DNA of 64,000 bases from positions 62,001-126,000 of the forward strand of contig NZ_JASC01000014.1 of NCBI RefSeq assembly GCF_000622365.1, read 5' to 3'. Positions 21,507-44,890 of this stretch are shown here, piece after piece. Under the pieces are notes generated by a model. The model ran no database searches. It saw only the letters and a list, made by a program, of their open reading frames with translations, and had not been told where the DNA came from. Position numbers and translations under genes: made by a program. This DNA comes from Sulfitobacter noctilucae (GTDB taxonomy: Bacteria > Pseudomonadota > Alphaproteobacteria > Rhodobacterales > Rhodobacteraceae). Positions within the stretch are counted from its first letter, which is position 1; each line of letters opens with the position of its first letter.

Positions 21507-21530
21507 GCCGGCATTGAGGAGAGAGGCACG

Positions 21531-29055: not shown

Positions 29056-29850
29056 TCAATCCCACGGCTGGTCGGGATCAGGCAGTGGAATAGACGCGAG
29101 AAGTTCGCGGGTATAGGCGGCTTGGGGCGCAGCAAACAATGCATCTGTATCACCTTGCTCGACGACTTCGCCGTGATGCAGCACAAGAACGCGATCGCAG
29201 AGCCTGCGGATCACCGACAGGTCGTGGCTGATGAACCCTAGCGTCAGCCCCAATTCGCCCACCAGTTTACCCAGTAGATTCAACACCTGCGCTTGGCTTG
29301 ATACATCAAGGCCCGAAACAATCTCATCGGCGAGGATGAAATCGGGCCGCAGGGCGATAGCGCGGGCAATGCCGACGCGCTGGCGCTGACCGCCCGAGAG
29401 TTCATGCGGGAAACGGCGTGCAAAGCTGCGGGGCAGGCCGACCATGTCGAGCGCCTCATTCACGCGGGCAGTCAGTCCATCAAAGCCGTACAACTTCAAC
29501 GGCCCTGCAATGATCCCGCCGACCCGGCGGCGCGGGTTCAACGACGACATCGGGTCTTGAAAGATCATCTGAAAACGCTGCCGCATCCCGCGCAACTGAT
29601 CTTCGGTTTGGTGGGTGATGTCGGTGCCATCAAATGCAATTGTACCGCTATCAGGCTCCAGCAGGCGCAGCATCGCGCGGCCCAAGGTGGATTTGCCGGA
29701 GCCGGAACCACCAACAATGCCGAGAACGGCCCCTTTCGGCAAATCAAAGCTGATCCCTTTGAGCACGGGCGTACGCGGTGCCGCCCCCAGCAGGGGTTTG
29801 CGCGTGAGATCAGGAAAGGAAAGCCGAAGATCGCGGACTTGATACATCAT
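29056..29850 (-). CDS. Oligopeptide-type ABC transporter ATPase (DppF/OppF-like)
   Basis: 264 residues. Walker A GGSGSGKST at ~47-55, signature LSGGQRQR, Walker B FILADEIVSGLD (Glu followed by Ile where most have Pro), H-loop FISHD; the C-terminal VEQGDTDALFAAPQAAYTRELLASIP is the peptide-transporter type extension. It is the last gene of the five-gene transporter and overlaps the preceding ATPase start by four bases. Energises import of the substrate recognised by the binding protein at 32628-34154. Confidence 0.9.
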   Translation of the reverse strand: MMYQVRDLRLSFPDLTRKPLLGAAPRTPVLKGISFDLPKGAVLGIVGGSGSGKSTLGRAMLRLLEPDSGTIAFDGTDITHQTEDQLRGMRQRFQMIFQDPMSSLNPRRRVGGIIAGPLKLYGFDGLTARVNEALDMVGLPRSFARRFPHELSGGQRQRVGIARAIALRPDFILADEIVSGLDVSSQAQVLNLLGKLVGELGLTLGFISHDLSVIRRLCDRVLVLHHGEVVEQGDTDALFAAPQAAYTRELLASIPLPDPDQPWD

Positions 29851-30716
29851 GTGCCCGCCCTCGCATCGTGCCAGCGAACTTCAGCCTCAACCTCTTCGAT
29901 CACCGTATCAGAGACCGGCGTCAGACTTCCCAACGGATCTTCGTAACTGGGTGTGGCCGAGAGCAAGGCGCGCGAATAGGAATGGATCGGTCGCATGAAA
30001 AACCGCTGCATCCGGGCCTCTTCGACCACTTTGCCGGCATAGAGAACACTAAGAGTATCACATACCTTGGACACCACGCCCAGATCGTGGGTGACAAAGA
30101 GCAGCGCCGTACCATGCCGCGCCTGCATTTGAGCGATCAGTCGAAGGATCTGCTTTTGCACCGTGACGTCCAGCGCGGTCGTCGGCTCATCTGCGATGAT
30201 CAGCTTGGGTTCGGCGGCAAAGGCAGAGGCAATGAGGATGCGCTGGCGCATACCGCCTGACAATTCGTGGGGGTAGCTGCGCATTACTCTTGCGGCATTG
30301 GGGATCTGCACCTCGTCCAGCAGTTCCAGCGCGCGGGCCTCGGCCGCCTGCTTCGTCCAGCCAAGGATATCGATCAGCCGCCGCGTGATCTGTGGCCCGA
30401 TCCGTTTCGAAGGGTTCAGTGCGGTCAGCGGATCCTGCGGGATCAACGCAGCCGTAGCCCCGATGCGCCGCCGCCGTTCGGCCGCGGACAGCGACAGCAG
30501 ATCGACACCGTCCAGCCAGATTTCTCCGCCCGTGATCTGCAAAGCGCGGGGCAGGGTGCCCAGCACCGCTTTGCCGATCATCGATTTACCCGCGCCGCTT
30601 TCGCCGACCAGCCCGTGCACCTGACCCGCCGCAACATTCAGCGAAACGGACCGCAGGATCACCGGGCCAGAGCGCAGCCGCACCGTCAGGTTCCTTATGA
30701 TCAGATAGCCGCTCAT
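29847..30716 (-). CDS. Oligopeptide-type ABC transporter ATPase (DppD/OppD-like)
   Basis: 289 residues. Walker A GESGAGKS, signature ELSGGMRQR, Walker [13 protein letters not shown], and the C-terminal extension [16 protein letters not shown] found in OppD-type subunits. Start overlaps the permease stop by four bases. Partner of the DppF-like subunit; both needed for the heterodimeric motor. Confidence 0.9.
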
Positions 30717-31564
30717 CTCAGCACCGGATCAAAGCGGTCTTTCAACCCTTCGCCCAATTGGCTGAAACTCAGCACCGTGAGGAACAACGTGATAAGCGGG
30801 AAAACCAGCACCCACCACGCCTGATGTACCGATGTGCGCCCTTCGGCAATCATGCCCCCCCAAGTAGGGCTGTCGGTGGATATCGAGAGGTTCACAAAAC
30901 TCAGGATCGCTTCGACGATCACGGCAATGCCCATTTCCAGCGTCAGCAGGGCCACGATGGTGGGCAGCACGTTGGGCAGGATCTCGGTCAGCATGGTGCC
31001 GAACCGGGTGCGTCCGGCCACTTGGGCAGAGGCGACGTAATCCATCGCCCCCTGTGTCATCGCCTCGGCTCGGATTACGCGCGCAAAGCGGGTCCAATCA
31101 ATCACAACGATGGCGATGATGATCGAGATCAGACCGGGACCCAGTACCGCAATAAGCAAAATTGCAAACAGCACGGGCGGAAAGGCCATCCAGATGTCGA
31201 CAAAACGGCTGATAATCCGGTCGGGCCAGCCGCGATAATAGCCCGCGATCAGGCCCAGCGTCGCACCGATGACGCAGGTCAGCGTACCTGCCACCAGCGC
31301 CACAATCAGCGCCAGCCGCGTGCCATAGAGGATACGGCTTAGCACATCACGGCCCAGCGAATCTGTGCCCAGCAGATACCCCGGTTCCGCTCCCTGCACC
31401 CAGAAAGGCGGCATGCGGCCCAGAAACAGGTCTTGCATCAGCGGATCTTTGGGTGCGATCCACGGGGTGAAAAGTGCGCCGAGTGCCAGCAAAGTCAGCC
31501 AGCCGCCCGAGAGCCACAACCGTAGACCGATAGGTCTGCGAATATCTCCGCGCGCATCACGCAT
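30713..31564 (-). CDS. Oligopeptide-type ABC transporter permease (DppC-like)
   Basis: 283 residues with six membrane segments. YLLGTDSLGRDVLSRILYG is the DppC signature, and the EAA loop reads EAMTQGAMDYVASAQVAGRT. Start overlaps the DppB stop by eight bases. Inner-membrane channel half. Confidence 0.91.
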   Translation of the reverse strand: MRDARGDIRRPIGLRLWLSGGWLTLLALGALFTPWIAPKDPLMQDLFLGRMPPFWVQGAEPGYLLGTDSLGRDVLSRILYGTRLALIVALVAGTLTCVIGATLGLIAGYYRGWPDRIISRFVDIWMAFPPVLFAILLIAVLGPGLISIIIAIVVIDWTRFARVIRAEAMTQGAMDYVASAQVAGRTRFGTMLTEILPNVLPTIVALLTLEMGIAVIVEAILSFVNLSISTDSPTWGGMIAEGRTSVHQAWWVLVFPLITLFLTVLSFSQLGEGLKDRFDPVLR

Positions 31565-32567
31565 GACGCAGCCGGGGATTCAGTACAACATAGAGCATAT
31601 CGACCACCAGATTGACGATGGTAAACAGGAGCGCAAAGAGGATTACGATCCCCTGGATCAGCGGCAGGTCGCGGTTGATCACCGCGTCGATGGCCATATT
31701 GCCAAGCCCCTCGTAGCTAAAGAGCCGTTCGATGATCACAGTGCCGCCGATTAGAAAGGTGAATTGCACGCCTACCAAAGTCAATGTGGGCAGGATTGCG
31801 TTGGGCAGAGCCTCGCGCGTGATGACGTGGTTCTCACCATATCCCTTGGTGCGGGCAAGCGTCACATAATCCAGATGCATGGTTTCTTTCAGCGATTGCT
31901 TCAGTAGTTGCGCGATGATGGCGGCTAGCGGGATGGCCAAGGCCAGCGCGGGCATGAACATGTGGCCAATGAGGTCGGCGAGGACGTCAAAGCGAAGCCG
32001 CACCAGGGCCTCGAAGAAATAGAAATTCGTGTTGAAATCAATGTTTAGCGCGGGCGAGATGCGGCCCGAGATGTGGAACACCGGCCAGAGCACGCCGAAC
32101 AACAGGATCAGCACCAACCCCCACAGAAAATCCGGGATCGACAGCGCCATGCCGGCGCTGATGTCAACCGCGCCTTCGGTCTTGGTGTCGCGGTAGCGGG
32201 TGCCCAAGAGGGCCATCGTTCCGCCGATCACAATCGCGATGGACAATGCAAAGATCGACAGCTCTAATGTGGCGGGCAGGCGGCCCAGCACGAGCCCGGC
32301 TACCGGTTGGCGCAATGAAATGGAGGTGCCGAAATCGCCCTGCATCACCCCGCCCAGCCAGATCACGAATTGCTCAAAGATGGATTTGTCGAACCCGTAT
32401 TGGGTCTGCAACCGCGCGATATCGGCTTCGGTGGCACCGGGTGGCAGCATCATAGCAATCGGATTGCCGGGCACCACGCGGATCACGACAAAGACAATCA
32501 CCGCCACGCCGATAAGCGTCACAAGCGTCGTCAGCAGACGGATCAAGATGTTGCGGAGGAGTGTCAT
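31557..32567 (-). CDS. Oligopeptide-type ABC transporter permease (DppB-like)
   Basis: 336 residues. The N-terminal membrane helix is followed by VVPGNPIAMMLPPGATEADI, typical of DppB; the EAA loop is LKETMHLDYVTLARTKGYGE; C-terminal part VIERLFSYEGLGNMAIDAVINRDLPLIQG is conserved. Lies 60 bases after the binding-protein gene, separated by a strong hairpin. Confidence 0.91.
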   Translation of the reverse strand: MTLLRNILIRLLTTLVTLIGVAVIVFVVIRVVPGNPIAMMLPPGATEADIARLQTQYGFDKSIFEQFVIWLGGVMQGDFGTSISLRQPVAGLVLGRLPATLELSIFALSIAIVIGGTMALLGTRYRDTKTEGAVDISAGMALSIPDFLWGLVLILLFGVLWPVFHISGRISPALNIDFNTNFYFFEALVRLRFDVLADLIGHMFMPALALAIPLAAIIAQLLKQSLKETMHLDYVTLARTKGYGENHVITREALPNAILPTLTLVGVQFTFLIGGTVIIERLFSYEGLGNMAIDAVINRDLPLIQGIVILFALLFTIVNLVVDMLYVVLNPRLRHA

Positions 32568-32584
32568 GTATTCTGCTCGAAAAT

Positions 32585-32612
32585 AGGCGGGGCCATCTGC
32601 GCAGCCCCGCCT
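32585..32612 (-). terminator. Hairpin between the binding-protein gene and dppB-like gene
   Basis: AGGCGGGGC (32585-32593) pairs with GCCCCGCCT (32604-32612), nine perfect pairs with a ten-base loop, followed on the transcribed strand by ATTTTCG. Likely raises binding-protein expression over the membrane components by partial termination or mRNA protection. Confidence 0.62.
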
Positions 32613-32627
32613 GTATTAAAATCTAAC

Positions 32628-34154
32628 TCAGGACCGCGTCATCAGGTGGGGCAACAGCGCACCCGAGCGGTGGGGCGTCACCTTGACCCGCGCATCATGA
32701 ATGATGGGCTGGACGTATTGCAGCAACGGGATGACTTCGGCGTTTTCAGCCACCAACCGGTCCACCGCTTTCCAGCCTTCGATGCGCTTGGCCTCATCTG
32801 TTTCGCCCCACAGCGGCAGGATCGCGTCAAAGGTCTCCTTGCCGTCCCAGACCGAATGGGGGGAGGGGCCGAACATTGCGAAACCCGTCGATGTTGTCGG
32901 ATCGCCGACGGAGTTGCCCCAATTATAGAAGGCAGCAGGAGCCAGCTGATCGGCGGCACGCAGCTCGAAATGTTTGGCGATCTCGTAGACTTCAATCTCG
33001 GCCTCAATCCCGACACGGCGCCATAGGCCCACAATGGCCTGAACCATTTCATAATCCTTGGGTTTGAACCCCTTGGTGGTCTGGATTTTGAATTTCACAG
33101 GATTGTCCGGGCCATAGCCGCTGTCGGCCAGCAGTTTTTTGGACAGTTCCGGGTCGTAGGCCACTTTGATCGTCTCATCAAAGGCCGAATAATCCGGGGT
33201 CTGCAGCGTGTCGATGGGGACGCCGTAGCCTGACAGCAAGCGCTCTATTATCAGCGGTTTGTCGATGGCATGGGCGGCCGCCTTGCGCACGTTAGGGTCT
33301 GTCATGACCTCGATATCATTGAGAAAAATCATCCCGATATCGGAAACCGGCTCGGCCACGCCCGCCAATCCGTCCTTGGCCTTGAGCCGGTCGAATTCCT
33401 CATAAGGGATTTCCAGCGTGACATGGGAGTTGCCGGATTCAACTTCGGCCACACGGCTCGCCGCATCGGTCACGAACTTCACCGTCACCGTCTTGAACTC
33501 CGGCGCGCCGCCCCAGTAATTCTCGTTGGCTTTGAGGCGCACAAAGGCGTTCCGCTCGAACCGCTCGACCATATAAGGGCCGGTGCCAATGGGTGCAGCC
33601 TCGAACCCGTCCGCGCCGACTTCTTCATAGTATTTCTTGGGCATGACATAGCCTGTCAAAAAGGACATCCACTTGAAGAACGTGGGATCATATTCTTTGA
33701 CATCAGCCGTCACACGATTGCCGTCAGCCATCACGTTTTCAACCTTGCCCCAGACGAACTGGATCGGGCTGCCGGTGTCCGGATTGGCGACGCGGGTCAG
33801 CGACCATGCCACATCTTCCGCGGTCAGCGGGTCGCCGTTGTGCCATGTCACGCCTTCGCGCACATCCATCCAGATCTGACTGTTGTCATCGTTCCAGCCA
33901 TAATCAGTGATGATGCCAGAGCCGAAGGAAAGGTCTGGGTTCTGCGGGATGAAAAGGTCAAAGACAGACTGGTAGAACCCCTGAATGGTCGGATTCACCG
34001 CAGAAAGCCCCACTGTCGGATCCCAGCTGGGCAGGTTCACATTGTAGGCCACGACCAGCTCATCAATTTCCTGCGCAAAGCTGGGAAGACCGATGGTGGT
34101 CAAGGCCGCCACGGCGGCCGATGTCTTGAGCAGGCTTCTTCTGGATAAGGTCAT
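32628..34154 (-). CDS. ABC transporter substrate-binding protein, family 5 (DppA/OppA-like)
   Basis: 508 residues. Tat-type signal (SRRSLLKTSAAVAALTTIG) ending near SFAQ. The family-5 pattern includes WMDVREGVTWHNGDPLTAEDVAWSL, APIGTGPYMVERF and DVRKAAAHAIDKPLI. Such proteins bind peptides, but many in roseobacters bind sugars, amines or other organics. Its place directly after a flavoprotein gene and opposite a catabolic operon suggests the ligand is that pathway's substrate; the ligand cannot be read from sequence. Confidence 0.9.
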   Translation of the reverse strand: MTLSRRSLLKTSAAVAALTTIGLPSFAQEIDELVVAYNVNLPSWDPTVGLSAVNPTIQGFYQSVFDLFIPQNPDLSFGSGIITDYGWNDDNSQIWMDVREGVTWHNGDPLTAEDVAWSLTRVANPDTGSPIQFVWGKVENVMADGNRVTADVKEYDPTFFKWMSFLTGYVMPKKYYEEVGADGFEAAPIGTGPYMVERFERNAFVRLKANENYWGGAPEFKTVTVKFVTDAASRVAEVESGNSHVTLEIPYEEFDRLKAKDGLAGVAEPVSDIGMIFLNDIEVMTDPNVRKAAAHAIDKPLIIERLLSGYGVPIDTLQTPDYSAFDETIKVAYDPELSKKLLADSGYGPDNPVKFKIQTTKGFKPKDYEMVQAIVGLWRRVGIEAEIEVYEIAKHFELRAADQLAPAAFYNWGNSVGDPTTSTGFAMFGPSPHSVWDGKETFDAILPLWGETDEAKRIEGWKAVDRLVAENAEVIPLLQYVQPIIHDARVKVTPHRSGALLPHLMTRS

Positions 34155-34186
34155 TAAAATTTCTCCCTGTTATGGTCTTTTGTTAT

Positions 34187-35755
34187 TCAGTTTCCGGCCA
34201 GTTTCTTGGCCAATAATGTGCCTGGCCCCGCGCCTGTGCCGCCGCCGGGCCAGACGGCCGCGCCGGTATGATAAAGGTTTCGGATCGGCGTTGTGCCATC
34301 GGCGTAGCCGCGTGCGGGACGGTTCATGAAATGCTGATGCAGGTGGTGGCTGCCGCAGACCTGATCCCCGCCGACAAGGTTGGGGTTGTCGGCCTCCAAC
34401 ATAGTGGGCGTCACGATATGCTGGCCAAGTATTTTGGCGCGGGTGCCCGGTGCATAACGCTCCAGAATACCCAACGCGCGATTGGCAAAGGGTTCCGCAG
34501 CGCTTTCCCAATCGGTTGCGGCATTCTCGCCTTTGGCGTCGCCCTTTATCTGGCCGGGGGCCATGCGCACCTGCAACCACAACACATGTTTGCCCTCAGG
34601 CGCACGACTGGGGTCCACGACGGTGGGCTGGCCGCAAACGATCACCGGCTCATCCGGCAGCAAACCTGCCTTGGCCTGCGCGTAGGTGCGGGCCATTTGA
34701 TCCATGGACGGTGCCATGTGAACATAGGCAAAGCGCTTTAGTTCGGGCGCAGACCAGTCGGGCAGGGCATCCATTGCCAGATGAATCATCATTGTGCCGG
34801 GGGCGTGCTGGAAGCTTCTCAGCTTCTGGTCATATTTTGTATCACTGGTGTCGCCTGTAAGCTTGGCCAACGCGGCAGGGGACACGTTGGCGATCACGGC
34901 TTTCTCAGCCTCGACCAGCGTGCCATCGGCCAGGATGATGCCAAAGGCGCGGCCCGCGGCCTCTTTGATACCGGTCACGTTGGCGTCGCAGTGCACGCTG
35001 CCGCCGCGCGCTTCGATCATACGGACCATGGCATTGGTGATCGTGTTCGCCCCGCCTTGGCCGAGGACCATGCCAAAGGCCTGCCCCGCCATTGCCTCGA
35101 GGTACGGAAACACCGCACCGCCCGCGATATCAGGGGCAAAATCCAGATGCATGCCCCAGGCGGCAAGGGTCGCCTTGACGTGCTCGGATGTGAAGGTTTC
35201 ATCCAGCCAGGCACGGGGCGACATCATCAGGAATCCGGCAAGGTCTAGCGTGCCGCCACCGCCGTTCTTGCGCCACAGCTTCCAACCTAAAGATGAAACT
35301 GCACGTAAATTCATCGCGCTGCCCAAGACGCCAAATATTGATTCGGCTTGCGCTGGAAAGTCATCGGTCAGTTGCTGCCACGTCTGTGCATCCGCATCTG
35401 AAAACCCGCGCACCCGCGCTGTTGTTAAAGCATGATCATTCGAGATGCCCAGCCAGCGGCCGTCTGGAAAAACACTGGCAAAGGGATTGGCGGTTGGCGC
35501 AAAAGCCAGTCCGTATTTTGCCAGCTCTGCCGCGTTTTCAGTGTGAAATGCCGATCCCGCAAACATAGACAGGTTCATCGCAGCCCAGTCGTGGCGAAAC
35601 CCCGGCAGCGTATAGGCGCCTGTTTTGACGGCCCCTCCGGGTTCGCCGGCCTGTTCGTACACGGCGACTTTCCAACCGCGTGCGGCAAGGTGACAAGCAC
35701 AGGCAAGCGAGTTGTGGCCTGCGCCGATGATCACTGCATCCGGGTTTGTCGCCAT
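34187..35755 (-). CDS. Phytoene-desaturase-like FAD oxidoreductase A
   Basis: 522 residues. Rossmann motif VIIGAGHNSLACACHLAARG at the N-terminus, second motif WKVAVYEQAGEPGGAVKTG, and C-terminal FAD contact NLYHTGAAVWPGGGTGAGPG. This is the CrtI/retinol-saturase-like family that also includes many non-carotenoid oxidases and isomerases. Carotenoid genes are absent nearby. It heads the transporter operon (32 bases to the binding protein) and is divergent from the cyclase gene with 115 bases between. A paralogue of nearly equal length lies at 36668-38230. Confidence 0.87.
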   Translation of the reverse strand: MATNPDAVIIGAGHNSLACACHLAARGWKVAVYEQAGEPGGAVKTGAYTLPGFRHDWAAMNLSMFAGSAFHTENAAELAKYGLAFAPTANPFASVFPDGRWLGISNDHALTTARVRGFSDADAQTWQQLTDDFPAQAESIFGVLGSAMNLRAVSSLGWKLWRKNGGGGTLDLAGFLMMSPRAWLDETFTSEHVKATLAAWGMHLDFAPDIAGGAVFPYLEAMAGQAFGMVLGQGGANTITNAMVRMIEARGGSVHCDANVTGIKEAAGRAFGIILADGTLVEAEKAVIANVSPAALAKLTGDTSDTKYDQKLRSFQHAPGTMMIHLAMDALPDWSAPELKRFAYVHMAPSMDQMARTYAQAKAGLLPDEPVIVCGQPTVVDPSRAPEGKHVLWLQVRMAPGQIKGDAKGENAATDWESAAEPFANRALGILERYAPGTRAKILGQHIVTPTMLEADNPNLVGGDQVCGSHHLHQHFMNRPARGYADGTTPIRNLYHTGAAVWPGGGTGAGPGTLLAKKLAGN

Positions 35756-35870
35756 GCGTTCCTACATCTTTCTATCGATAAGATAATTGCAAACGCATAT
35801 AATTTTGTCTAGCTTTTGATTCACAGATACAACTGCGGGGGGAACCTGCGGACTTCAGGGAGATTACAAA

Positions 35871-36662
35871 ATGAGCGCATCTGATGTAGTGACCAATTTA
35901 GGGGCGATGCTGGCCTCTGGTGGTGTAGAGGTCGTCGATTGTTCGGGCGTCTTGGGACCGGAGACGCCAATTCTGCAATTGCCGCCGGATTTTGCCAAGA
36001 ACACGCCCAAGGTCGAGATCCATAAGATCAGTGAGTACGACAACGATGGCCCGTTCTTTGCGTGGAACTGGATGGTACTGGGTGAACACTCTGGTACGCA
36101 TTTCGACGCGCCCCATCACTGGATCACCGGCAAGGATTACGAGGACGGTTATACCGACAAGCTGGACGTGCAGCGGCTGGTGGCCCCGGTGAACGTGATC
36201 GACTGCTCCGAACAAACACAAGAAGACCCCGATTTCCTGCTGACTGCCAAAGGCGTGAAGGAATGGGAAGATGCCCATGGCGAGATCGGCAAGGGCGAAT
36301 GGGTCGTGATGCGCACCGACTGGGACCAGCGTGTCGACGACGAGGACAAATTCCTGAACGCAGATGAAACGGGGCCGCACTCCCCCGGTCCGACACCTGA
36401 TTGCATCGAATACCTTCTGAGCAAAGGTATTGTCGGTTGGGGCACCCAGTGCATCGGTACCGACGCAGGGCAAGCTGGCGGGATGGAGCCGCCTTATCCG
36501 GCGCATAATCTGCTGCACCGCGATAATTGCTTTGGTTTGGCGTCGCTGGCCAATCTGGACAAACTGCCTGCCAAGGGCGCGATCCTGATTGCGGCACCGC
36601 TCAAGATCAAGCACGGCACCGGCTCTCCGATCCGCGCGCTGGCGCTGGTTCCCAAAGGCTGA
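35871..36662 (+). CDS. Cyclase-family metal hydrolase (isatin hydrolase / kynurenine formamidase type)
   Basis: 263 residues. The metal-binding signature HSGTHFDAPHHW (HxGTHxDxPxH) is at ~72-83, with GTDAGQAGG and AHNLLHRDN later. This family includes isatin hydrolase (opens the lactam ring of isatin to isatinate), kynurenine formamidase and related Mn/Zn hydrolases. Length and the tryptophan-rich FFAWNWMVLGEHSG fit the larger isatin-hydrolase-like group better than bacterial KynB (~210). ATG 35871 has GGGAG upstream. First gene of a tight operon with flavoprotein B, MarR, IorA, IorB and IspD. Confidence 0.82.
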   Translation: MSASDVVTNLGAMLASGGVEVVDCSGVLGPETPILQLPPDFAKNTPKVEIHKISEYDNDGPFFAWNWMVLGEHSGTHFDAPHHWITGKDYEDGYTDKLDVQRLVAPVNVIDCSEQTQEDPDFLLTAKGVKEWEDAHGEIGKGEWVVMRTDWDQRVDDEDKFLNADETGPHSPGPTPDCIEYLLSKGIVGWGTQCIGTDAGQAGGMEPPYPAHNLLHRDNCFGLASLANLDKLPAKGAILIAAPLKIKHGTGSPIRALALVPKG

Positions 36663-36667
36663 ACGCG

Positions 36668-38230
36668 GTGGCGGCGTTCGATCATCTGATCATCGGGTCG
36701 GGCATCAATGCCTTGGTGGCCGCCGCGATGCTGTCGCGCAAAGGCGATAGCGTGTTGGTGATCGAACGCGAGAACCGCGTGGGCGGCTGCATGTATACGT
36801 CTGATGACGTAACACTGCCGGGCTTTCATCACGACGTGATGGCGGCAACCTTTGTGTTGTTCCTGACCGGCCCCGCGCACGAGGCGTTAGGGGCCGATCT
36901 GGCCGAGCACGGACTGGAGTTCTGCCATACCGCGCACCCCACGGCCGTATTGCGCCCTAATGGGTCTGCGCTGGTGCTGAGCACTGACAGGGCTGCAAAT
37001 GTCACAGCGTTCGACAAGTTGTCCGCAGGTGACGGCGATCAACATGCCGCCGATGTGGGCGCGGTCGAGGCGGATGCGCCGTTTCTCTTTGCGCTTCTGG
37101 GTCAACCGCTCTGGTCCCGCCAGACGATAACGCTGCTGGCGAAACAGGCGTGGAAACGCGGGCTCGGCCCTCTCAAGACATGGTTCGGCGAGGCGATGGA
37201 ACCTGCGCGTGGCCGGCTGGAAACCCGCTATGCCGCGCCAGAGATCCAAGCGCTTTGGGCCCCTTGGGTGCTCCATGTCGGCTTGACCCCCGAAGCGACC
37301 TATGGCGGGCAAATGGCGCGGGTCATCGCCTTTGCGCTGGAGGCTGCCGGCGCACCGGTGGTCAAAGGCGGTGCCGGACAGGCAGCAGCGGCGTTTCAGT
37401 CCTTGATCGAGGCGAACGGCGGCACGTTCCGCACCGGGGTCGAAGCGACCAGGATTATCGTAGAAAACGGCAAGGCAATCGGTGTCGAGACATCGGAGGC
37501 CGAGCGCATACTGGCCAAGAACGTGATCGCCAGCACGGCCCCCGGACAGTTGTATGACAGGTTGCTCGGGGATCAGCCGCGTCCGCAAACTGCCAAGAAA
37601 TTCCGCCACGGACGGGGAAACTTCCAACTGCATTATGCGCTCGATGGCCCGATTGAATGGAACGCCGAAGGGCTTGAGGATGTGGCCCTGATTCATCTGG
37701 CCGATGGCATCGATTCGGTCTCAAAATCCTGCAATGAAGCGGAACGCGGCATGCTGCCTGTGCGCCCGACCATCTGTGTCGGCCAACCCCACAGGTTGGA
37801 CCCGACCCGCTGTCCCGAGGGTAAAGGCGTGTTGTGGCTGCAAATCCCCGATGCACCGGGCGTGATCAAGGGCGATGCTGCGGGTGAAATCGAGACAGAG
37901 ACGACCTGGACCGACACCATGCGCGAGGCGTTCGCCGACCGGATCGAAGCGATCTTGGCCAGCCACATACGCAATTGGGAACAGATCAAACTGAAACGCC
38001 GCGCCTATTCGCCTGCCGATCTGGAACGGATGAACGTAAACCTCGTGGGCGGTGACCCTTACGGCGGGGCCTGTACGCTGGACCAATTCTTTGTCTGGCG
38101 GCCCTATGCCGCACAAACGAACAACAGCACACCGGTTGCGAACCTCTATCACATCGGGGCTTCCACCCATCCCGGTCCCGGTCTGGGCGGTGGATCGGGC
38201 TTGAACGTGGCGAAGGGATTGGGTGCATGA
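36668..38230 (+). CDS. Phytoene-desaturase-like FAD oxidoreductase B
   Basis: 520 residues from GTG 36668, five bases after the cyclase stop. N-terminal LIIGSGINALVAAAMLSRKG and VLVIERENRVGGCMYT form the FAD site; C-terminal NLYHIGASTHPGPGLGGGSG closes it. Paralogous to flavoprotein A across the divergent promoter (both share GTMMIHLAMD/NFQLHYALDGPI, VCGQPTV/ICVGQPHR and the LWLQ stretch), suggesting either two consecutive steps or a hetero-complex. Longer upstream frames lie within the cyclase gene and are discarded. Confidence 0.86.
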   Translation: MAAFDHLIIGSGINALVAAAMLSRKGDSVLVIERENRVGGCMYTSDDVTLPGFHHDVMAATFVLFLTGPAHEALGADLAEHGLEFCHTAHPTAVLRPNGSALVLSTDRAANVTAFDKLSAGDGDQHAADVGAVEADAPFLFALLGQPLWSRQTITLLAKQAWKRGLGPLKTWFGEAMEPARGRLETRYAAPEIQALWAPWVLHVGLTPEATYGGQMARVIAFALEAAGAPVVKGGAGQAAAAFQSLIEANGGTFRTGVEATRIIVENGKAIGVETSEAERILAKNVIASTAPGQLYDRLLGDQPRPQTAKKFRHGRGNFQLHYALDGPIEWNAEGLEDVALIHLADGIDSVSKSCNEAERGMLPVRPTICVGQPHRLDPTRCPEGKGVLWLQIPDAPGVIKGDAAGEIETETTWTDTMREAFADRIEAILASHIRNWEQIKLKRRAYSPADLERMNVNLVGGDPYGGACTLDQFFVWRPYAAQTNNSTPVANLYHIGASTHPGPGLGGGSGLNVAKGLGA

Positions 38231-38706
38231 ACAAGGCAGAACCGACCATCGCCCAAGCCCCCCGGCTGGGCGAAATGGGTCTCGAGAATTTTGCACCCTA
38301 TCTGATGAACCGGATCATTGGTCGCTACAACGCAGCCCTGTCCTCCGAGATGGCAGAGATGGGGTTGACCACGCCGCAAATGCGGTCGCTCGCTGTGCTT
38401 TCGGTGATGGATGGCTTGCTGATCCGCGAACTCGCGGTCTATGCGGTGGTGCAGCAGTCCACGCTTAGCCGCGCACTAGAGACGTTGGACCAGAACGGCA
38501 TGATCCGCCGTGCCCCCGATGAACAGGACAGCCGCGCCACCCGCGTTTTCATTACCGACGCGGGCCGTGAGGCTTATATCCGGCTTTGGCCACAGATGTC
38601 TGACGCCTCGGAAGCGATGTTCAAAGGCATCAGCGAAGAGCAGCGGCGAGCCTTTGTCGGAACATTGCAAACCATGTTGCGCAACATCCGCAAACACGAT
38701 TTCTAA
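38227..38706 (+). CDS. MarR-family transcriptional regulator
   Basis: 159 residues with the MarR winged helix: LTTPQMRSLAVLSVMDGLLIRELAVYAV, then QSTLSRALETLDQNGMIRRAPDEQDSRATRVFITDAG (recognition helix and wing with DxR). ATGA overlap with flavoprotein B, nine bases to iorA. Regulators of this type often bind the pathway's aromatic acid; regulation of the divergent promoter at 35756-35870 is the obvious candidate. Confidence 0.9.
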   Translation: MNKAEPTIAQAPRLGEMGLENFAPYLMNRIIGRYNAALSSEMAEMGLTTPQMRSLAVLSVMDGLLIRELAVYAVVQQSTLSRALETLDQNGMIRRAPDEQDSRATRVFITDAGREAYIRLWPQMSDASEAMFKGISEEQRRAFVGTLQTMLRNIRKHDF

Positions 38707-38715
38707 GGAGATAGC

Positions 38716-40866
38716 ATGGCTGAACGCTCGTTCAAAGCCGAGGTGGAACACCTGCGCAAAGGGGATGGCGACGTCTTTACCGGCGAAGGGATTTTGGCCA
38801 TCACCAAAGCACTTTTGGAAAACGGTGTGGGCTATGTCGGCGGCTATCAGGGCGCGCCGATTAGCCATCTGATGGACGTGCTCGCCGACGCCGAGGAGCT
38901 GATGGGCGAATTGGGCGTGCGGTTTGAAGCGAACGCTTCAGAGGCCGCCGCCGCGGCGATGTTGGCGGCGTCGGTGCATTATCCCATTCGCGGTGCGGTG
39001 ACCTTCAAAGGACCGGTCGGGGTCAATGTGGCATCTGATGCTTTGGCCAACCTGTGTTCAAGCGGCGTGAACGGTGGCGCGCTGATCATCGTTGGCGAAG
39101 ACTATGGCGAGGGGAGTTCCATCATGCAGGAACGCTCCCACGGATTTGCAATGAAATCGCAGTTCTGGATGCTGGACCCGCGTCCCAACCTGCCCTCAAT
39201 CACGAAGGCGGTGAAGGACGGGTTCGAGCTGAGCGAGGCGAGCAACACGCCGGTTATGCTTATGGTGCGCATCCGGTCTTGCCATGTGACGGGCAGTTTC
39301 GCGACCAAGGACAACGTGCCGCCGCCGCTGACCATGAAGCAGGCGATCGCCAACCCGCAGTCCGATTTCCGCCGCGTGGTGCTGCCACCGATGAGCTATC
39401 TGCATGAACAGGACAAAGTGCAGAACCGCTGGCCCGCCGCCGAGAAATTCATCGTCGAGAATGGGCTGAACGAACACTTCGGCCCCAAAGACGCCAAGCT
39501 GGGTATCGTGGTGCAGGGCGGCATGTACAACGGCGTGATCCGGGCCCTGCAACGGCTGGGGCTCGCAGATATCTTTGGCGAAACGCAAGTGCCGATCTAC
39601 TGCCTGAACGTCACCTATCCCATCGTCAAAGACGAATTCGACGCCTTTTGCGCGGGCAAGGATCACGTCATGATCGTGGAGGAAGGCCAGCCCGAACATA
39701 TCGAACAGATGCTGGGCAACTTCCTTTTCAAGTCGGGCCGCAAGATCAAGCTTTATGGCAAGGACGTGCTTCCGATGGCCGGCGAATACACCGGTCAGGT
39801 GATGCTGGACGGCGTGACCGCGTTTCTGCGCAAAGCCGCTCCCGACATGCTGCCGGGTCAGGTGCGCGCTCCTAATCAGGAAGCGGCCGCGATACCGGAC
39901 CTCAGCAAGACCGTGCCAATCCGCCCACCCGGTTTTTGTACGGGGTGTCCCGAACGGCCAATTTTTGCAGGGATGAAGCTGGTCGAGCAGGAGTTGGGCA
40001 AGCACCAGATCACCGCCGACATCGGCTGTCATCTTTTCGGTTCCCTTCCGCCCTTCGAGATTGGTGGTGCTACCATGGGCTACGGCCTTGGGCCTGCGGC
40101 CAATGCGGCCTTTGATGGTGGGGGTGAACGGCGCGCCATCTCGATCCTCGGGGATGGCGGGTTCTGGCACAACGGGCTCAGTTCCTCGATCGGGAACATG
40201 GTGTTCAATAAATCCGACAACGTGGTGATGATCGTCGATAACTATTATTCCGCCGCCACAGGGGGGCAGGATATTCTTTCCAGCCGTGCGCAGAATGACA
40301 CCAAGTCGACGGGCAATCCCATTTCGGCAGCGTTGAAAGGGGTCGGCGTGGAATGGATACGCCAGATCGACCACACCTATGACGTGGGCAAAATGCGCGA
40401 CACTTTGAAAGAAGCGCTCACCACCGATTTCAAAGGACCGAAGGTGATTGTCGCCTCCTCTGAATGTATGTTGAACAAGCAGCGCCGTGAAAAGCCGATC
40501 CGCACCGCGGCCATCAAGGAAGGCCGCCGCGTGGACGTACCGCGCTTTGGCATTGACGAGAACATTTGTACTGGCGACCACGCCTGCATCCGTCTGTCGG
40601 GCTGTCCGTCCCTGTCGCTTAAGCGGTTGGACGATCCGCTGCGCGACGATCCAATCGCGCATATCGACCAGACCTGCGTAGGCTGCGGCAACTGTGGTGA
40701 GGTGGCCGATGCCGCCGTGCTTTGCCCGTCGTTTTACCGTGCTGATGTGGTTCACAATCCCGGCGGTTTTGAGACATGGCGCGCGGGCCTGCGCGCGGGC
40801 ATCATCGGCTGGCTGCAAAAACGCCGTGACCGCAAGCGGCTTCGGCTGGGCGGGGCTGCCGCATGA
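38716..40866 (+). CDS. Indolepyruvate:ferredoxin oxidoreductase-type alpha subunit (IorA-like)
   Basis: 716 residues. N-terminal pyruvate-oxidoreductase domain I (GEGILAITKALLENGVGYVGGYQGAPISHL; FEANASEAAAAAMLAAS), TPP-binding C-terminal domain (CTGCPERPIFAGMKLVEQEL; DIGCHLFGSLPPFE; SILGDGGFWHNGL; MIVDNYYSAATGGQD), and a C-terminal ferredoxin part. The second iron-sulfur motif CVGCGNCGEVADAAVLCP is regular; the first, NICTGDHACIRLSGCPS, is spread out. Oxidatively decarboxylates an aryl 2-oxo acid to the acyl-CoA with IorB. Substrate could be indole- or phenylpyruvate, or an arylglyoxylate such as isatinate given the cyclase neighbour. Stop overlaps iorB by four bases. Confidence 0.88.
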   Translation: MAERSFKAEVEHLRKGDGDVFTGEGILAITKALLENGVGYVGGYQGAPISHLMDVLADAEELMGELGVRFEANASEAAAAAMLAASVHYPIRGAVTFKGPVGVNVASDALANLCSSGVNGGALIIVGEDYGEGSSIMQERSHGFAMKSQFWMLDPRPNLPSITKAVKDGFELSEASNTPVMLMVRIRSCHVTGSFATKDNVPPPLTMKQAIANPQSDFRRVVLPPMSYLHEQDKVQNRWPAAEKFIVENGLNEHFGPKDAKLGIVVQGGMYNGVIRALQRLGLADIFGETQVPIYCLNVTYPIVKDEFDAFCAGKDHVMIVEEGQPEHIEQMLGNFLFKSGRKIKLYGKDVLPMAGEYTGQVMLDGVTAFLRKAAPDMLPGQVRAPNQEAAAIPDLSKTVPIRPPGFCTGCPERPIFAGMKLVEQELGKHQITADIGCHLFGSLPPFEIGGATMGYGLGPAANAAFDGGGERRAISILGDGGFWHNGLSSSIGNMVFNKSDNVVMIVDNYYSAATGGQDILSSRAQNDTKSTGNPISAALKGVGVEWIRQIDHTYDVGKMRDTLKEALTTDFKGPKVIVASSECMLNKQRREKPIRTAAIKEGRRVDVPRFGIDENICTGDHACIRLSGCPSLSLKRLDDPLRDDPIAHIDQTCVGCGNCGEVADAAVLCPSFYRADVVHNPGGFETWRAGLRAGIIGWLQKRRDRKRLRLGGAAA

Positions 40867-42401
40867 ACATGGTGTTGCCTTCCAAAACGACGGATGCCCG
40901 TGTGGCGCAGATCATCAAACTGGCGGTGATGGCCGTTGGTGGGCAGGGCGGTGGGGTGCTCACCGGCTGGATCGAAGCGCTGGGCCGGGCGCAGGGCTAT
41001 GCCGTTCAGGCGACAAGCGTGGCAGGCGTGGCCCAGCGCACGGGTGCGACGATCTATTACGTGGAGATGGCTTCGATGGATGGTGGTACGCCGGTCTTCG
41101 CGCTGGCCCCTTCTGGCGGCGATGTCGACATCCTGATCGCGGCCGAAATGATGGAAGTGGGCCGCGCCGTGATGCGCGGCTTTGTGACGCCGGATCGCAC
41201 AACATTGATCGGCTCGACCCACCGCGCTTTGGCGGTGTCTGAAAAGACCATGCCGGGTGACGGCATCGCCAATGCGGACGAAGTTCGCGCCGCGGCAGAG
41301 CTTGCTTCTCAGCGGATGATTTTGGCCGACATGGATCGGCTAGCCGTCGATCAGGGGTCTGTGATTTCCTCCAGCCTTTTCGGCGCTTTGGCCGGGTCCG
41401 GTGCCCTGCCTTTCCCGCGTGAAGCGTTCGAACAGGCAATCCGTGACGGCGGAAAATCGGTAGATGCATCTTTGCGAGGGTTTGAGGCAGGGTTTCAGGC
41501 GGCGCAGGGCGAAACAGATCCTCTCGAGGACGTCAGTGCACCGCCCGCGACGCCCAAGATCGTGGGGCCGAAGGCCCGCATGGGCAACTGGCAAGCGCTG
41601 ATCGAACGCTCGCAAAGTTTGCCCGCGCCGGTGGTTTGGATGGCGCAGGCCGGTCTGATGAAAGTCGTGGATTTCCAGGATTGTGGCTATGGCCGCGTCT
41701 ATCTGGACCGGTTGGATCAGGTGGTTGCACAGGACAGCGCAGATCACGATTGGCAGTTGAGCGTTACCGCCGCGAAATATATCGCCAATGCTATGGCCTA
41801 TGATGACATCATCCGCGTGGCGGACCTGAAGACCCGCGCGCCCCGCCTGCACCGCATTCGCGGTGAGATGGGCGCGAAAGACGGCAATTTGGTTGAGCTG
41901 ACCGAGTTTTTCCATCCCCGTGCCGAAGAAGTTGCCAGCCTGATGCCCGCCAAGATGGGCGCGCGTTGGGAGGCGAACCCTAAACGCATGGCGTTGCTGA
42001 ACAGGCTTTTCAACAAAGGACGGCGTTTGCGGACCCATACGCTCAGGTCCTTTCTAATGCTACATTTTCTGGGTGGGCTGAAAGGCTACCGGCTAAAAAC
42101 CCGCCGCCATCAGGTAGAGGTCGCGCATCTTGAAGGCTGGCTGCGCGACAGTCTCGCGGTGCGCGGCCAGGACTATGCATTGGCGGTCGAGATGTTGAAA
42201 AATCGCCGTCTGGTCAAAGGCTATTCCGACACGCACGCACGCGGGCTGACCAAATTCGGCACCGTGATGGGGGCCGCGACGCTTTTGCAGGGTCGCAAGG
42301 ATGCAGCGGAGTGGATGAACCGCCTGCGCGAAGCGGCTTTGCAGGACCCCGAGGGCAAAGCTCTGGACGGGGCGATCCAGACAGTGCGCAGTTTTGTCTG
42401 A
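40863..42401 (+). CDS. Indolepyruvate oxidoreductase-type beta subunit with DUF6537 extension (IorB-like)
   Basis: 512 residues. Residues ~15-200 are the gamma/beta oxidoreductase domain (VMAVGGQGGGVLTGWIEALGRAQGYAVQATSVAGVAQRTG in overlapping pieces; SVISSSLFGALAGSGALPF). The rest (~230-500) is a helical DUF6537 domain (RVYLDRLDQVV, VAHLEGWLRDSLAVRGQDYAL). Classical archaeal IorB is ~200 residues, so this is the longer bacterial form. Works as the partner of IorA; one base separates it from the IspD-like gene. Confidence 0.87.
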   Translation: MNMVLPSKTTDARVAQIIKLAVMAVGGQGGGVLTGWIEALGRAQGYAVQATSVAGVAQRTGATIYYVEMASMDGGTPVFALAPSGGDVDILIAAEMMEVGRAVMRGFVTPDRTTLIGSTHRALAVSEKTMPGDGIANADEVRAAAELASQRMILADMDRLAVDQGSVISSSLFGALAGSGALPFPREAFEQAIRDGGKSVDASLRGFEAGFQAAQGETDPLEDVSAPPATPKIVGPKARMGNWQALIERSQSLPAPVVWMAQAGLMKVVDFQDCGYGRVYLDRLDQVVAQDSADHDWQLSVTAAKYIANAMAYDDIIRVADLKTRAPRLHRIRGEMGAKDGNLVELTEFFHPRAEEVASLMPAKMGARWEANPKRMALLNRLFNKGRRLRTHTLRSFLMLHFLGGLKGYRLKTRRHQVEVAHLEGWLRDSLAVRGQDYALAVEMLKNRRLVKGYSDTHARGLTKFGTVMGAATLLQGRKDAAEWMNRLREAALQDPEGKALDGAIQTVRSFV

Positions 42402-42402
42402 T

Positions 42403-43071
42403 ATGAAAGTCGCTATCCTGATTGTCGCTGCCGGACGCGGCCGCCGCTTTGGCGATCCGCTGCCCAAGCAGTACCTACCTGTCGCGGGGATCTGTGCGCT
42501 GCGCCGGTGTCTGGATACATTCTTGGGCATGGTGAATGTGGGCACCGTCCAAGTTGTGATCCACTCGGATGATGCAGATCTTTACGCCGGGGCAGTGGCG
42601 GGCGTGTTTGATCCACGTTTGAACCAGCCCGTAGCGGGGGCAGAGACCCGCGCAAAATCTGTGATGCGAGGGCTACTGGCCTTGCAGGATGCTGCACCCG
42701 ATGTGGTTCTGGTCCATGATGCCGCGCGGCCTTTCGTGACGGAACGGATTGTCGCGGATGTGCTGACAGCTCTCGAACATGCGGACGGGGCATTCGCCGC
42801 CTTACCCGTGGTCGATGCGCTTTGGCAGGCCGAAGATGGGCTTGCCCTGACACCAGTCGCGCGGGACGGATTGTGGCGCGCGCAAACACCGCAGGGGTTT
42901 CGGTTTCAGGCTCTGCTGGACGCACACCGCACCTATCAGGGGGATGCTGCCGACGACGTAGAAATTGCCCGCGCGATGGGCATCGACGTTCGTATCGTGC
43001 ACGGTGACACGGCAAACTTCAAAATCACCACGCCCGAAGATCTTGCCCGCGCAGAACGCTTTCTGCGCTAG
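42403..43071 (+). CDS. IspD-like 2-C-methyl-D-erythritol 4-phosphate cytidylyltransferase
   Basis: 222 residues. Nucleotide-binding opening ILIVAAGRGRRFGDPLPKQYL, metal/substrate site VLVHDAARPFVTERIV, and C-terminal NFKITTPEDLARAERFL match IspD, which makes CDP-methylerythritol in isoprenoid synthesis. Stand-alone here, with no ispF domain; many alphaproteobacteria carry an IspD-IspF fusion. Its location as last gene of a catabolic operon is odd. It shares a CTAG with the convergent DUF2783 gene, the two stop codons overlapping. Confidence 0.85.
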   Translation: MKVAILIVAAGRGRRFGDPLPKQYLPVAGICALRRCLDTFLGMVNVGTVQVVIHSDDADLYAGAVAGVFDPRLNQPVAGAETRAKSVMRGLLALQDAAPDVVLVHDAARPFVTERIVADVLTALEHADGAFAALPVVDALWQAEDGLALTPVARDGLWRAQTPQGFRFQALLDAHRTYQGDAADDVEIARAMGIDVRIVHGDTANFKITTPEDLARAERFLR

Positions 43072-43256
43072 GACGCCGCTGCGTCAAGGGCTTGCTTCAG
43101 AATTGCGCGGTCGCCGATGTGGTTGGCCAAAATGAGCACCAACCGCGCATTGATGGCATCGCTTTCCTCTTTGCTGCGGCCTTCGTGCAGGGCCAACAGG
43201 TCGGCGTAGAAATCGTCAGGTCTGTCGATATTGGCTGTCAGGTTTAGGGTGCTCAT
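43068..43256 (-). CDS. DUF2783 small protein
   Basis: 62 residues, acidic and helical: DRPDDFYADLLALHEGRS followed by NARLVLILANHIGDRAILKQAL. DUF2783 proteins are regularly encoded directly after FAD monooxygenases, as here (overlap of four bases with the monooxygenase stop). A helper of the monooxygenase is plausible; no function is established that I know of. Confidence 0.8.
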   Translation of the reverse strand: MSTLNLTANIDRPDDFYADLLALHEGRSKEESDAINARLVLILANHIGDRAILKQALDAAAS

Positions 43257-44890
43257 GCCGTGGCCTCCTGTCCGGTCGCGCGGCGGATCGCGGCGCGCAG
43301 TGCCTCTTCGTCAAATGTGGCCATCCTTGCTGCAACGTGCTGATCGGGGCGGATCAAATAAACCGCGCTTTTTGTGTCGCCCAGATACCGTGCGGCTAGC
43401 TGTCCTGACGGATCATCCTCGGCAGACAGGCTCACGGCCTTTGCAGTGATCCCGCCTTCCGTCAGGCTCTCTGGCACATCGGTTTCCAGCGCCAGAACGG
43501 TAAAGCCGTCCCCGAGAAGCGCTAATAGATAGCCTTCACCAAGCGGTGCGTCGGGGCAGGGGGCGCCGGGGCGCGTGCGTGCGGGACCTGCTGGCAGGGC
43601 GTCGGCACTGTTCAAAGGCGAGCCATCATAAATGCAGGGCAACGACAGACGGCCCGAGTTCACGAGCGGGCGGGCGAATTCGTACCGCTCACTCAGATGC
43701 AGGACCGCGTCACGGAACAGACGGCTGGTGTCGGACTTGGGCGTGATGAAATCGGTGGAGCGGGTGGAGTTGAGGATGTTCTCGTCCGCGCCGAACATAC
43801 GTTCGTCGTTATAGGTGTCGATCAGGCTGGCGGGTGCCTTGTTCGCTACAACCAGCCCCAGTTTCCAGCCCAGATTATCCGCATCCTGCATGCCGGAATT
43901 TGCCCCGCGCGCCCCAAAGGGCGAGACCTGATGTGCGGCGTCCCCGGCAAAGATCACCGGCCCCTTGCGGAATGTCTCCATCCGTTTGCACTGGAATGTG
44001 TAGATCGAGGACCAGACCAGCTCGTATTCCACATCCGCACCCAAAAAGGCGTCCAGTCTTGCGCGGATGTTCTCCTCTTTCATCTCTTCACTGCGGTCAA
44101 TGTCCCAGCCGATCTGGAAATCCACCCGCCAGATATCATCGGGCTGCTTGTGCAAGAGGGTCGAGGCACCGGCAGATTTGAACGGTGGATCAAACCAGAA
44201 CCAGCGTTCGGTCGGAAATTTGGTGTTGATCATCTTGATGTCGGCAATCAGGAAGTTGTCTTGGAATACGCGGCCCGTGAAGTCGAGGTCGAGCATCCCG
44301 CGTAAGGGCGAATTGGCACCGTCGCACCCGATCAGCCAATCCGCTTCGAGGGTGTAGGGGCCATCGGGCGTCAGGATGGTGATAATGACGTGATCATCCT
44401 TCACCTCCACGCCTTCGACACGGTTTTTGCCGCGGATCTGGATCGGTGCGCCCTGCGCTTGCAGGTCAAAAGCGCGTTCGATCATGAACTGTTCGAAATA
44501 GGGCTGCTGCATGTTGATGAACGCAGGAAATTTATGCCCCTCTTCGGGCAGGAGGTTGAATTCGAACACCTGTCTGTCTTCGTGAAACACTTTGCCGATG
44601 TTCCAGACCACACCCTTGTCCACCATCCGTTCGCCGCACCCATAGCGGTCTGCAATTTCGAGGCTGCGTTTGGCAAAGCAAATCGCGCGGCTGCCCATGC
44701 CAACACCTTCGTGATCGTCTAGCACCACCACCGGGATGTTCTGCCGCCCCAGATCAAGCGCTGTAGCAATGCCCACCGGACCACCACCCATTACAACGAC
44801 CGGATGGCGGACGGGTGTCGCCGCATCCTGATCCGCGTTGCGTTCGTAAGGATAGGCTTTGAAAGCAAGCGCATAGCGTTCATCGAACAT
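43253..44890 (-). CDS. FAD-dependent aromatic monooxygenase (MhpA/PheA-type group A flavoprotein)
   Basis: 545 residues. FAD Rossmann motif VVMGGGPVGIATALDLGRQ (~31-50), the DG-type motif ADWLIGCDGANSPLRGML (~182-199), and the GD motif GPVIFAGDAAHQVSPFGARGANSGMQDADNL (~305-335, broken here into parts GPVIFAGDAAHQ and GARGANSGMQDA). This is the class A aromatic hydroxylase family that uses NAD(P)H and O2. It is followed by DUF2783. Upstream lie two tandem operator-like dyads (44917-44957). The substrate is likely a phenolic or aminobenzoate-type compound; it may finish the pathway of the neighbouring island or be separate. Confidence 0.87.
   Translation of the reverse strand: MFDERYALAFKAYPYERNADQDAATPVRHPVVVMGGGPVGIATALDLGRQNIPVVVLDDHEGVGMGSRAICFAKRSLEIADRYGCGERMVDKGVVWNIGKVFHEDRQVFEFNLLPEEGHKFPAFINMQQPYFEQFMIERAFDLQAQGAPIQIRGKNRVEGVEVKDDHVIITILTPDGPYTLEADWLIGCDGANSPLRGMLDLDFTGRVFQDNFLIADIKMINTKFPTERWFWFDPPFKSAGASTLLHKQPDDIWRVDFQIGWDIDRSEEMKEENIRARLDAFLGADVEYELVWSSIYTFQCKRMETFRKGPVIFAGDAAHQVSPFGARGANSGMQDADNLGWKLGLVVANKAPASLIDTYNDERMFGADENILNSTRSTDFITPKSDTSRLFRDAVLHLSERYEFARPLVNSGRLSLPCIYDGSPLNSADALPAGPARTRPGAPCPDAPLGEGYLLALLGDGFTVLALETDVPESLTEGGITAKAVSLSAEDDPSGQLAARYLGDTKSAVYLIRPDQHVAARMATFDEEALRAAIRRATGQEATA

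Follow-up and report, generated by a model that had tools for sequence, protein, structure and literature searches.

The 64,000-nucleotide window analysed here (Sulfitobacter noctilucae, contig NZ_JASC01000014.1, positions 62,001 to 126,000; host genome of 3.9 Mb in 14 contigs) harbours a divergent gene cluster encoding an Opp/Dpp-type importer, two flavoproteins (FlavA and FlavB), a putative isatin hydrolase, a MarR regulator and the 2-oxoacid oxidoreductase IorAB (Table 1). On balance, we favour the reading that the eleven genes at 29056-42401 constitute one isatin-centred catabolic unit, in which the importer and FlavA/FlavB would lead to isatin, and from there via isatinate to anthraniloyl-CoA; a module around a kynureninase-like pyridoxal phosphate (PLP) enzyme in the same window would be a second source of isatin. 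The downstream half of this unit appears well supported, and the proposed front end is new.

Table 1. Features of the window discussed in the text (positions count from the first base of the window)
Feature	Position	Strand	Remarks
Kynureninase-like PLP enzyme, about 11 kb from the cluster	17636-18748	+	TIGR01814 59 bits against a cutoff of 246.4; relatives fused to isatin hydrolase B
Class-I PLP aminotransferase-like gene	18756-19919	-	L188 and, by eye, L136 also have it next to a kynureninase-like gene
SDR dehydrogenase of the PLP module	19989-20711	+	recurs in L147, L149, L176, L188
Metallo-beta-lactamase (MBL)-fold hydrolase of the PLP module	20748-21548	-	recurs in L147, L149, L176
Second class-I aminotransferase-like gene (start approximate, label by eye)	21534-22661	+	recurs in L147, L149 (by eye), L176
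ABC transporter ATPase, Opp/Dpp F-type	29056-29850	-	PF00005 1.1e-31; kept across clusters
ABC transporter ATPase, Opp/Dpp D-type	29847-30716	-	PF00005 2.1e-27; kept across clusters
ABC permease, DppC-like	30713-31564	-	PF00528 (BPD_transp_1) 4.3e-25; kept across clusters
ABC permease, DppB-like	31557-32567	-	PF00528 (BPD_transp_1) 8.2e-33; kept across clusters
Family-5 substrate-binding protein, Tat signal	32628-34154	-	PF00496 (SBP_bac_5) 1.1e-70, PF10518 4e-05
FlavA, CrtI/CrtO-like FAD oxidoreductase; proposed isatin-forming front end	34187-35755	-	PF01593/PF01266
Divergent promoter region, 115 bp	35756-35870		
Conserved operator-like element, core TTGCAAACGCATATAA at 35787-35802	35778-35814	+	37-base matrix score 58.2
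Isatin hydrolase B orthologue (Cyclase PF04199)	35871-36662	+	PDB 4J0N, E 1.2e-157
FlavB, GTG start, distant FlavA paralogue (35%)	36668-38230	+	
MarR regulator	38227-38706	+	PDB matches: 3CJN best, 7KYM (auxin-MarR study) second
IorA, thiamine pyrophosphate (TPP)-binding 2-oxoacid oxidoreductase alpha	38716-40866	+	PF02775 (TPP_enzyme_C); C-terminal cysteine motifs read from sequence
IorB (POR gamma + DUF6537)	40863-42401	+	NF006179
IspD-like	about 42403-43071	+	IspD 196.8 against a cutoff of 181.3 bits

Six genes run leftward from 35755 and six rightward from 35871. The rightward genes are tightly packed, with gaps of 5 bp (cyclase-FlavB) and 9 bp (MarR-IorA) and overlaps of 4 bp each (FlavB-MarR and IorA-IorB). 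The re-derived gene map reproduces the gene order, strands, coordinates and 115-bp divergent gap of an initial annotation made from the sequence alone, except that the genes number twelve and not thirteen. Pfam and NCBIfam profile searches returned families in agreement with its labels (Cyclase, SBP_bac_5, MarR, TPP_enzyme_C, POR, IspD, two ABC_tran and two BPD_transp_1).

A scan of named genomes yielded 432 FlavA relatives, of which the best 80 were kept; fifty-five of these had enough flank for inspection (related loci are cited by their L numbers). All eleven core genes were present in 51 of the 55 loci, with identical gene order and strands in all 51. The IspD-like gene was found at an identity of at least 55% in only three of the 63 loci reaching its position, being shared by a few close relatives, and is a mere neighbour outside the conserved unit. 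The six rightward genes that the initial annotation had proposed to check for co-conservation thus hold together from cyclase to IorB, and IspD drops out. An FAD monooxygenase of the PRK08132 family (43253-44890; 750.7 against a cutoff of 416 bits) also adjoins the cluster, and does not appear among the genes listed for 20 relatives.

FlavA matches at E 1e-30 were detected in 25 of 60 genomes, the host included, and 21 of these reached at least 65% identity. Thirty plasmid records contain a FlavA match at E 1e-60, among them ten of Sulfitobacter and three of Tritonibacter, and the whole unit is annotated on a Tritonibacter plasmid (L207). Complete clusters with 71-75% FlavA identity also occur in records titled Nocardioides marinus (L076) and Blastopirellula (L064), assemblies that are probably mislabelled or contaminated. 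Genes in most related loci were called with a custom codon-score caller trained on cluster genes, which produced one artefact, a merged open reading frame at 154-2547 of L140. Many neighbour labels in these loci were assigned by eye from translations; those that bear on the argument were scanned with profiles.

Isatin hydrolase type and the route to anthraniloyl-CoA

The cyclase of the cluster is very likely an isatin hydrolase of type B, judging from its orthology to a characterised enzyme. It is closest to isatin hydrolase B of Labrenzia aggregata (4J0N; Table 1), with the HxxxHxD metal stretch retained, and matches isatin hydrolase A at about 1e-81. The cyclase of Roseibium aggregatum IAM 12614 (L074), which lies in the same kind of cluster, is identical to 4J0N at all 263 residues, which places the crystallised enzyme in such a cluster; the window cyclase is 85% identical to this orthologue. 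The isatin-hydrolase-type label of the initial annotation is therefore borne out. Against the arylformamidase profile TIGR03035 the cyclase scored 38.6 bits, far below the cutoff of 223.05. No difference from the Labrenzia/Roseibium aggregatum enzyme (4J0N, 4M8D) was found, and it is the surrounding pathway that is new. Crystal structures of isatin hydrolase B exist, yet no pathway for it is described in the literature covered, and the cluster gives it a genomic home. The words "operon" and "gene cluster" are absent from the accessible main text of PMC6117287, and no description of this cluster was found in the open-access literature searched.

Co-occurrence was counted in 246 genomes of the family, nearly all from different genera, with type B defined by an identity of at least 60%, type A by at most 52%, and IorA by at least 60% (ten rows at 51-55% were excluded). 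Type B was present in 39 genomes, FlavA in 27, the kynureninase-like PLP gene in 30, IorA in 52, the iad-type Rieske alpha gene in 22 and type A in 23. The Rieske gene is termed iad-type, after the indole-3-acetate (iad) degradation genes, from its neighbourhood in L189 and L190 (ligase, thiolase, type-A hydrolase, SDR) and not by reference to Variovorax paradoxus IadD; its top NCBIfam hits fall short of their cutoffs. All 27 FlavA genomes also possess a type-B hydrolase and IorA, where 4.3 and 5.7 were expected. With 51 of 55 loci complete and these 27 of 27 genomes, the grouping of the eleven genes is far from chance. Type B was likewise found in 27 of the 30 genomes with the PLP gene, and type A in all 22 with the Rieske gene. 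The 39 type-B genomes comprise sixteen with FlavA and the PLP gene, eleven with FlavA only, eleven with the PLP gene only and one with neither; the Rieske gene also occurs in fourteen of them.

The same division is seen within 8 kb of the hydrolase genes. Among 45 type-B genes, 27 lie near FlavA and fourteen near the PLP gene (one near both), five lie near neither, and a single one, also near FlavA, is close to a Rieske gene. Sixteen of the 24 type-A genes have a Rieske gene nearby, none has FlavA or the PLP gene, and eight have none of these, several of the eight being in draft genomes where the Rieske gene sits on a different contig. Genomic context hence largely separates the isatin hydrolases: type A occurs with the Rieske gene, type B with FlavA/FlavB or the kynureninase-like PLP enzyme. 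This sets the type-B enzyme apart from type A and its auxin-type Rieske genes, and makes the source of its isatin testable.

The hydrolase would very likely convert isatin to isatinate, as its characterised orthologue comes from the same kind of cluster. IorAB, a thiamine- and iron-sulfur-dependent 2-oxoacid oxidoreductase, would then transform isatinate to anthraniloyl-CoA by oxidative decarboxylation. IorA scored 273.6 bits against TIGR03336 (indolepyruvate ferredoxin oxidoreductase alpha), below the cutoff of 650.9, and IorB exceeded that of NF006179 (indolepyruvate oxidoreductase beta family; 644 against 348 bits). Relatives of IorA with 76-85% identity occur with the PLP enzyme (L140, L188), beside iad-type Rieske genes (L180, L184) and in FlavA clusters. 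A 4HBT thioesterase gene lies between the fusion gene described below and IorA in L144, and others near IorAB in L156, L157, L182 and L184. Pfam had no match at E 1e-5 for the thioesterase-like gene in L138; its relative in L182 did match. RidA proteins are encoded near IorAB in L182, and beside FlavA in L153. A salicylyl/anthraniloyl-CoA-type monooxygenase is encoded near IorAB in L157 (1348 bits) and L186 (1299), and with IorA in L160 (1269; cutoff 1078). These thioesterase and monooxygenase contexts favour an aryl-CoA as the product of IorAB.

The host itself encodes the same monooxygenase (1298 bits) in another cluster (L194), together with a kynureninase above cutoff, a tryptophan dioxygenase (381.7 against a cutoff of 390.7 bits) and a benzoate-type CoA ligase just under its cutoff. 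The curated name of the monooxygenase is salicylyl-CoA 5-hydroxylase, and we take it to act on anthraniloyl-CoA as well. Anthraniloyl-CoA may thus enter a monooxygenase pathway whose genes are present elsewhere in the host. The route from isatin via isatinate to anthraniloyl-CoA, already put forward in the initial annotation, appears well supported by sequence comparison, since it fits the IorAB contexts in some relatives and the monooxygenase of the host.

A published hint comes from V. paradoxus. The HS33 deletion spans genes 77-53 and therefore lacks iadA (gene 72), according to the accessible text of PMC9613470, and the deletion strain carrying iadC-K2 builds up C8H7NO3, the formula of isatinate, according to that of the preprint PMC12633357. 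Such a build-up would be expected from the loss of an isatinate-consuming IadAB, a link that the accessible text of the preprint does not itself draw. The accessible parts of PMC9613470 assign no step to iadA/iadB, and the words iadA, iadB and indolepyruvate are absent from those of the PMC12633357 main text. The cluster suggests a role for these two genes of the iad loci.

FlavA, FlavB and the operator-like element

FlavA and FlavB have FAD-binding profile matches in common with the CrtI/CrtO carotenoid oxidoreductases. They differ in scoring only 194 and 151 bits against the CrtO cutoff of 1000, CrtO being the best NCBIfam match of FlavA, and in having catabolic neighbours; neither passes as CrtI or CrtO. 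The FlavA structure predicted with ten orthologues was of low quality (pLDDT 48.2) and was not taken to a fold search. Their co-occurrence with the hydrolase and a shared operator-like element suggest that both belong with isatin metabolism. The importer would take up a solute of indole or oxindole type, which FlavA together with FlavB would oxidise to isatin; the initial annotation had likewise proposed two flavin oxidations of an indolic compound.

The element in the divergent promoter region is the only site in the window that scores at least 12; a score of 5 was not reached in any of 20 shuffled windows. Its core TTGCAAACGCATATAA has one exact match in the whole genome and four matches with two mismatches; the reversed control gave two. 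Across the FlavA-cyclase gaps of 77 loci, TTGCAAA occurs in 69 and TGTCTAG in 67, and in 100 shuffles no 7-mer exceeded 11. Seventy-one of the 77 gaps score at least 25, most being training sites of the matrix; one or more of these training sites are misaligned and score negative. No perfect inverted repeat is common to the 77 gaps, and one with arms of at least 6 was found in only 23. The MarR of the cluster is a candidate for binding the element, and the eleven-gene unit is probably controlled by its own MarR.

The element also accompanies both halves of the unit where these are separated. The FlavAB-importer half lies about 66 kb from the hydrolase on one contig in four Sulfitobacter genomes. 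At FlavA/FlavB the element scores 47.6 in all four split genomes L041, L042, L044 and L050, and before the hydrolase-MarR-IorAB half it scores 50.2 in both split genomes looked at (L187, L191). The S. dubius/delicatus/indolifex group (L041, L042, L044, L050, L066, L124, L206) no longer has the hydrolase between FlavA and FlavB, and the element is retained in the six loci scanned (all but L206). Hydroxyproline-type genes adjoin FlavB in L041 and L206. Hydroxyproline, suggested as a substrate of FlavA/FlavB by the neighbours in L041 and S. indolifex, was dropped in view of the type-B hydrolase about 66 kb away, which in two of the four split genomes is accompanied by MarR and IorAB, and of the same element. 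Weaker sites were found in the rhizobial-looking clusters L153-L155 (35.1), in L137 (30.8), L138 (29.2) and L135 (27.0), and before the hydrolase in L140 (33.4); L178, L180, L181 and L186 contain weak sites of 13-21. In L188 the 16-base core lies between the PLP gene and the hydrolase, with a matrix score of only 10.6. One genome (G247) carries hydrolase-FlavB-FlavA-importer on one contig (L133) and MarR-IorAB beside an anthraniloyl-CoA-type monooxygenase on another (L186).

The kynureninase-like module and its fusion to isatin hydrolase B

The initial annotation had not linked the PLP module to the cluster, although both lie within the same window. A structure model of the PLP enzyme (pLDDT 90.9) was best matched by the kynureninase of P. 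fluorescens (1QZ9; TM 0.86 by query length, 24% identity), and cysteine desulfurases were nearly as good (rank 2, E 7.9e-24). The window enzyme shares with 1QZ9 the fold, the aligned PLP lysine and an invariant C-terminal arginine. It differs in its low identity, its TIGR01814 score below the kynureninase cutoff, the hydrolase fusion of its relatives and the presence in the host of a separate kynureninase that passes the cutoff.

The type-B and PLP genes share one open frame in eleven of the 246 genomes, as judged from equal reported length. Nine fusions are single open reading frames of 656-672 amino acids with the PLP domain first (L143, L144, L145, L146, L149, L172, L173, L175, L176). In a tree that sampled 25 of 91 FlavA-linked rows, all nine of their hydrolase domains cluster together within type B (support 100/99). 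A protein search with one fusion returned 2186 proteins at E 1e-60, not necessarily all fused; all 120 of those listed contain both PF00266 and PF04199, under generic names or none. The PLP gene also adjoins the hydrolase and IorAB in L188, L140 and the genome of L141/L177, genomes in which no FlavA turned up. Consecutive reactions are the simplest assumption for two fused enzymes, and on that basis the PLP enzyme would make isatin. The fusion in L173 and L175 follows a dipeptide-type importer and a peptidase-like gene (in L173 with NF005478 above cutoff and a weaker dipeptidase match), so an amino acid released from peptides would fit as the substrate.

The module at 17.6-22.7 kb may thus provide a second route to isatin, independent of the first and starting from an amino acid, perhaps an oxidised tryptophan. 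Kynureninase acts on gamma-hydroxy analogues through retro-aldol cleavage, which on dioxindolylalanine would give isatin and alanine. More tentatively, isatin might be a central intermediate reached by two Rieske-free routes that the literature covered does not describe, this PLP lyase on an oxindolyl amino acid and FlavA/FlavB on an oxindole-type solute; jointly they might serve the salvage of oxidised tryptophan and similar compounds by way of isatin, isatinate and anthraniloyl-CoA. The fusion suggests one particular reaction that can be checked, and possibly that bacteria use oxidised tryptophan. That FlavA and the PLP gene act together in a single pathway is disfavoured by the eleven type-B genomes with FlavA only and the eleven with the PLP gene only. 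The window module sharing the operator-like element was rejected, the single site in the window not being near it.

Alternative pathways and comparison with the iad locus

It is very unlikely that the cluster is an indole-3-acetate degradation locus in which isatin is made from the auxin. According to the accessible text of PMC9613470 and PMC12633357, the iad locus of Variovorax, Achromobacter and Bradyrhizobium has MarR, IorA/IorB (iadA/iadB), an isatin-hydrolase-family iadI (annotated there as kynurenine formamidase) and the isatin/anthranilate chemistry in common with the cluster. The accessible part of PMC9613470 treats iadA/iadB as exclusive markers of iad-like operons, a scheme under which the cluster could be counted as iad-like. 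The window IorA and IorB are 65% and 49-50% identical, respectively, to those of the iad-type loci L156 and L158, and 7KYM has a near-identical MarR counterpart in L156. However, the twelve genes include no Rieske oxygenase and neither an acyl-CoA ligase nor a thiolase (iadF, iadG), the hydrolase is of type B and not A, and FlavA/FlavB and a peptide-type importer stand in their place. Moreover, the host lacks a type-A hydrolase and, at E 1e-120 with a query iad-type by gene neighbourhood, the Rieske alpha gene, which goes with type A in the counts above. The distinctness from degradation of indole-3-acetate through isatin that the initial annotation had claimed is hence upheld. The kynurenine pathway fares no better: a cyclase and kynureninase-like gene acting as kynurenine formamidase and kynureninase, in variants that give anthranilate, are improbable. 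Distant matches to TIGR03035 and TIGR01814 exist, and some databases call the fusion kynurenine formamidase, selenocysteine lyase or cysteine desulfurase. Nevertheless, both scores are far under their cutoffs, the crystallised isatin hydrolase falls within the cyclase group, the host already possesses a kynureninase beside tryptophan dioxygenase in another cluster, and IorAB requires a 2-oxo acid, which anthranilate is not.

Somewhat less improbable, albeit still unlikely, is that only the hydrolase and IorAB form the catabolic core, with FlavA/FlavB acting on a separate substrate or in a side step such as detoxification or oxidation of another N-heterocycle. Plasmid pML2037 of Mesorhizobium loti (L204) encodes FlavA and the importer, beside xanthine-dehydrogenase-family genes, without hydrolase or IorAB, from which the pair may have a wider role in uptake and oxidation of N-heterocycles. 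This separation is opposed by the co-occurrence in 27 of 27 genomes, the fixed gene order and the common element. The isatin-centred unit is preferred on these grounds, and several observations weigh against it in addition to L204. FlavA homologues occur in other gene contexts, and FlavA is hence not bound to isatin everywhere. The four loci without the full gene set (L059, L065, L089, L126) all lack IorAB at the locus. The loci share ancestry, which lowers the weight of co-occurrence probabilities and element counts, and most of the gaps scored with the 37-base matrix had also served to train it. The distant clusters L132, L133, L134, L136 and L139 yielded no element scoring at least 8, and the loci with the fusion none scoring at least 12. 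Lastly, anthranilate is still restored in V. paradoxus with only iadC-K2 (accessible text of PMC12633357), which means that anthranilate formation there does not depend on IorAB-type genes, and the C8H7NO3 might stem from overexpression alone.

Both kinds of gene set are found in further loci. The Sulfitobacter loci L189 and L190 possess Rieske genes, an AMP ligase, a thiolase, a type-A isatin hydrolase and an SDR, similar to the published iad set. Locus L137 is a hybrid, with an iad-type Rieske reductase and oxygenase coming after FlavA/FlavB-hydrolase-MarR-IorAB.

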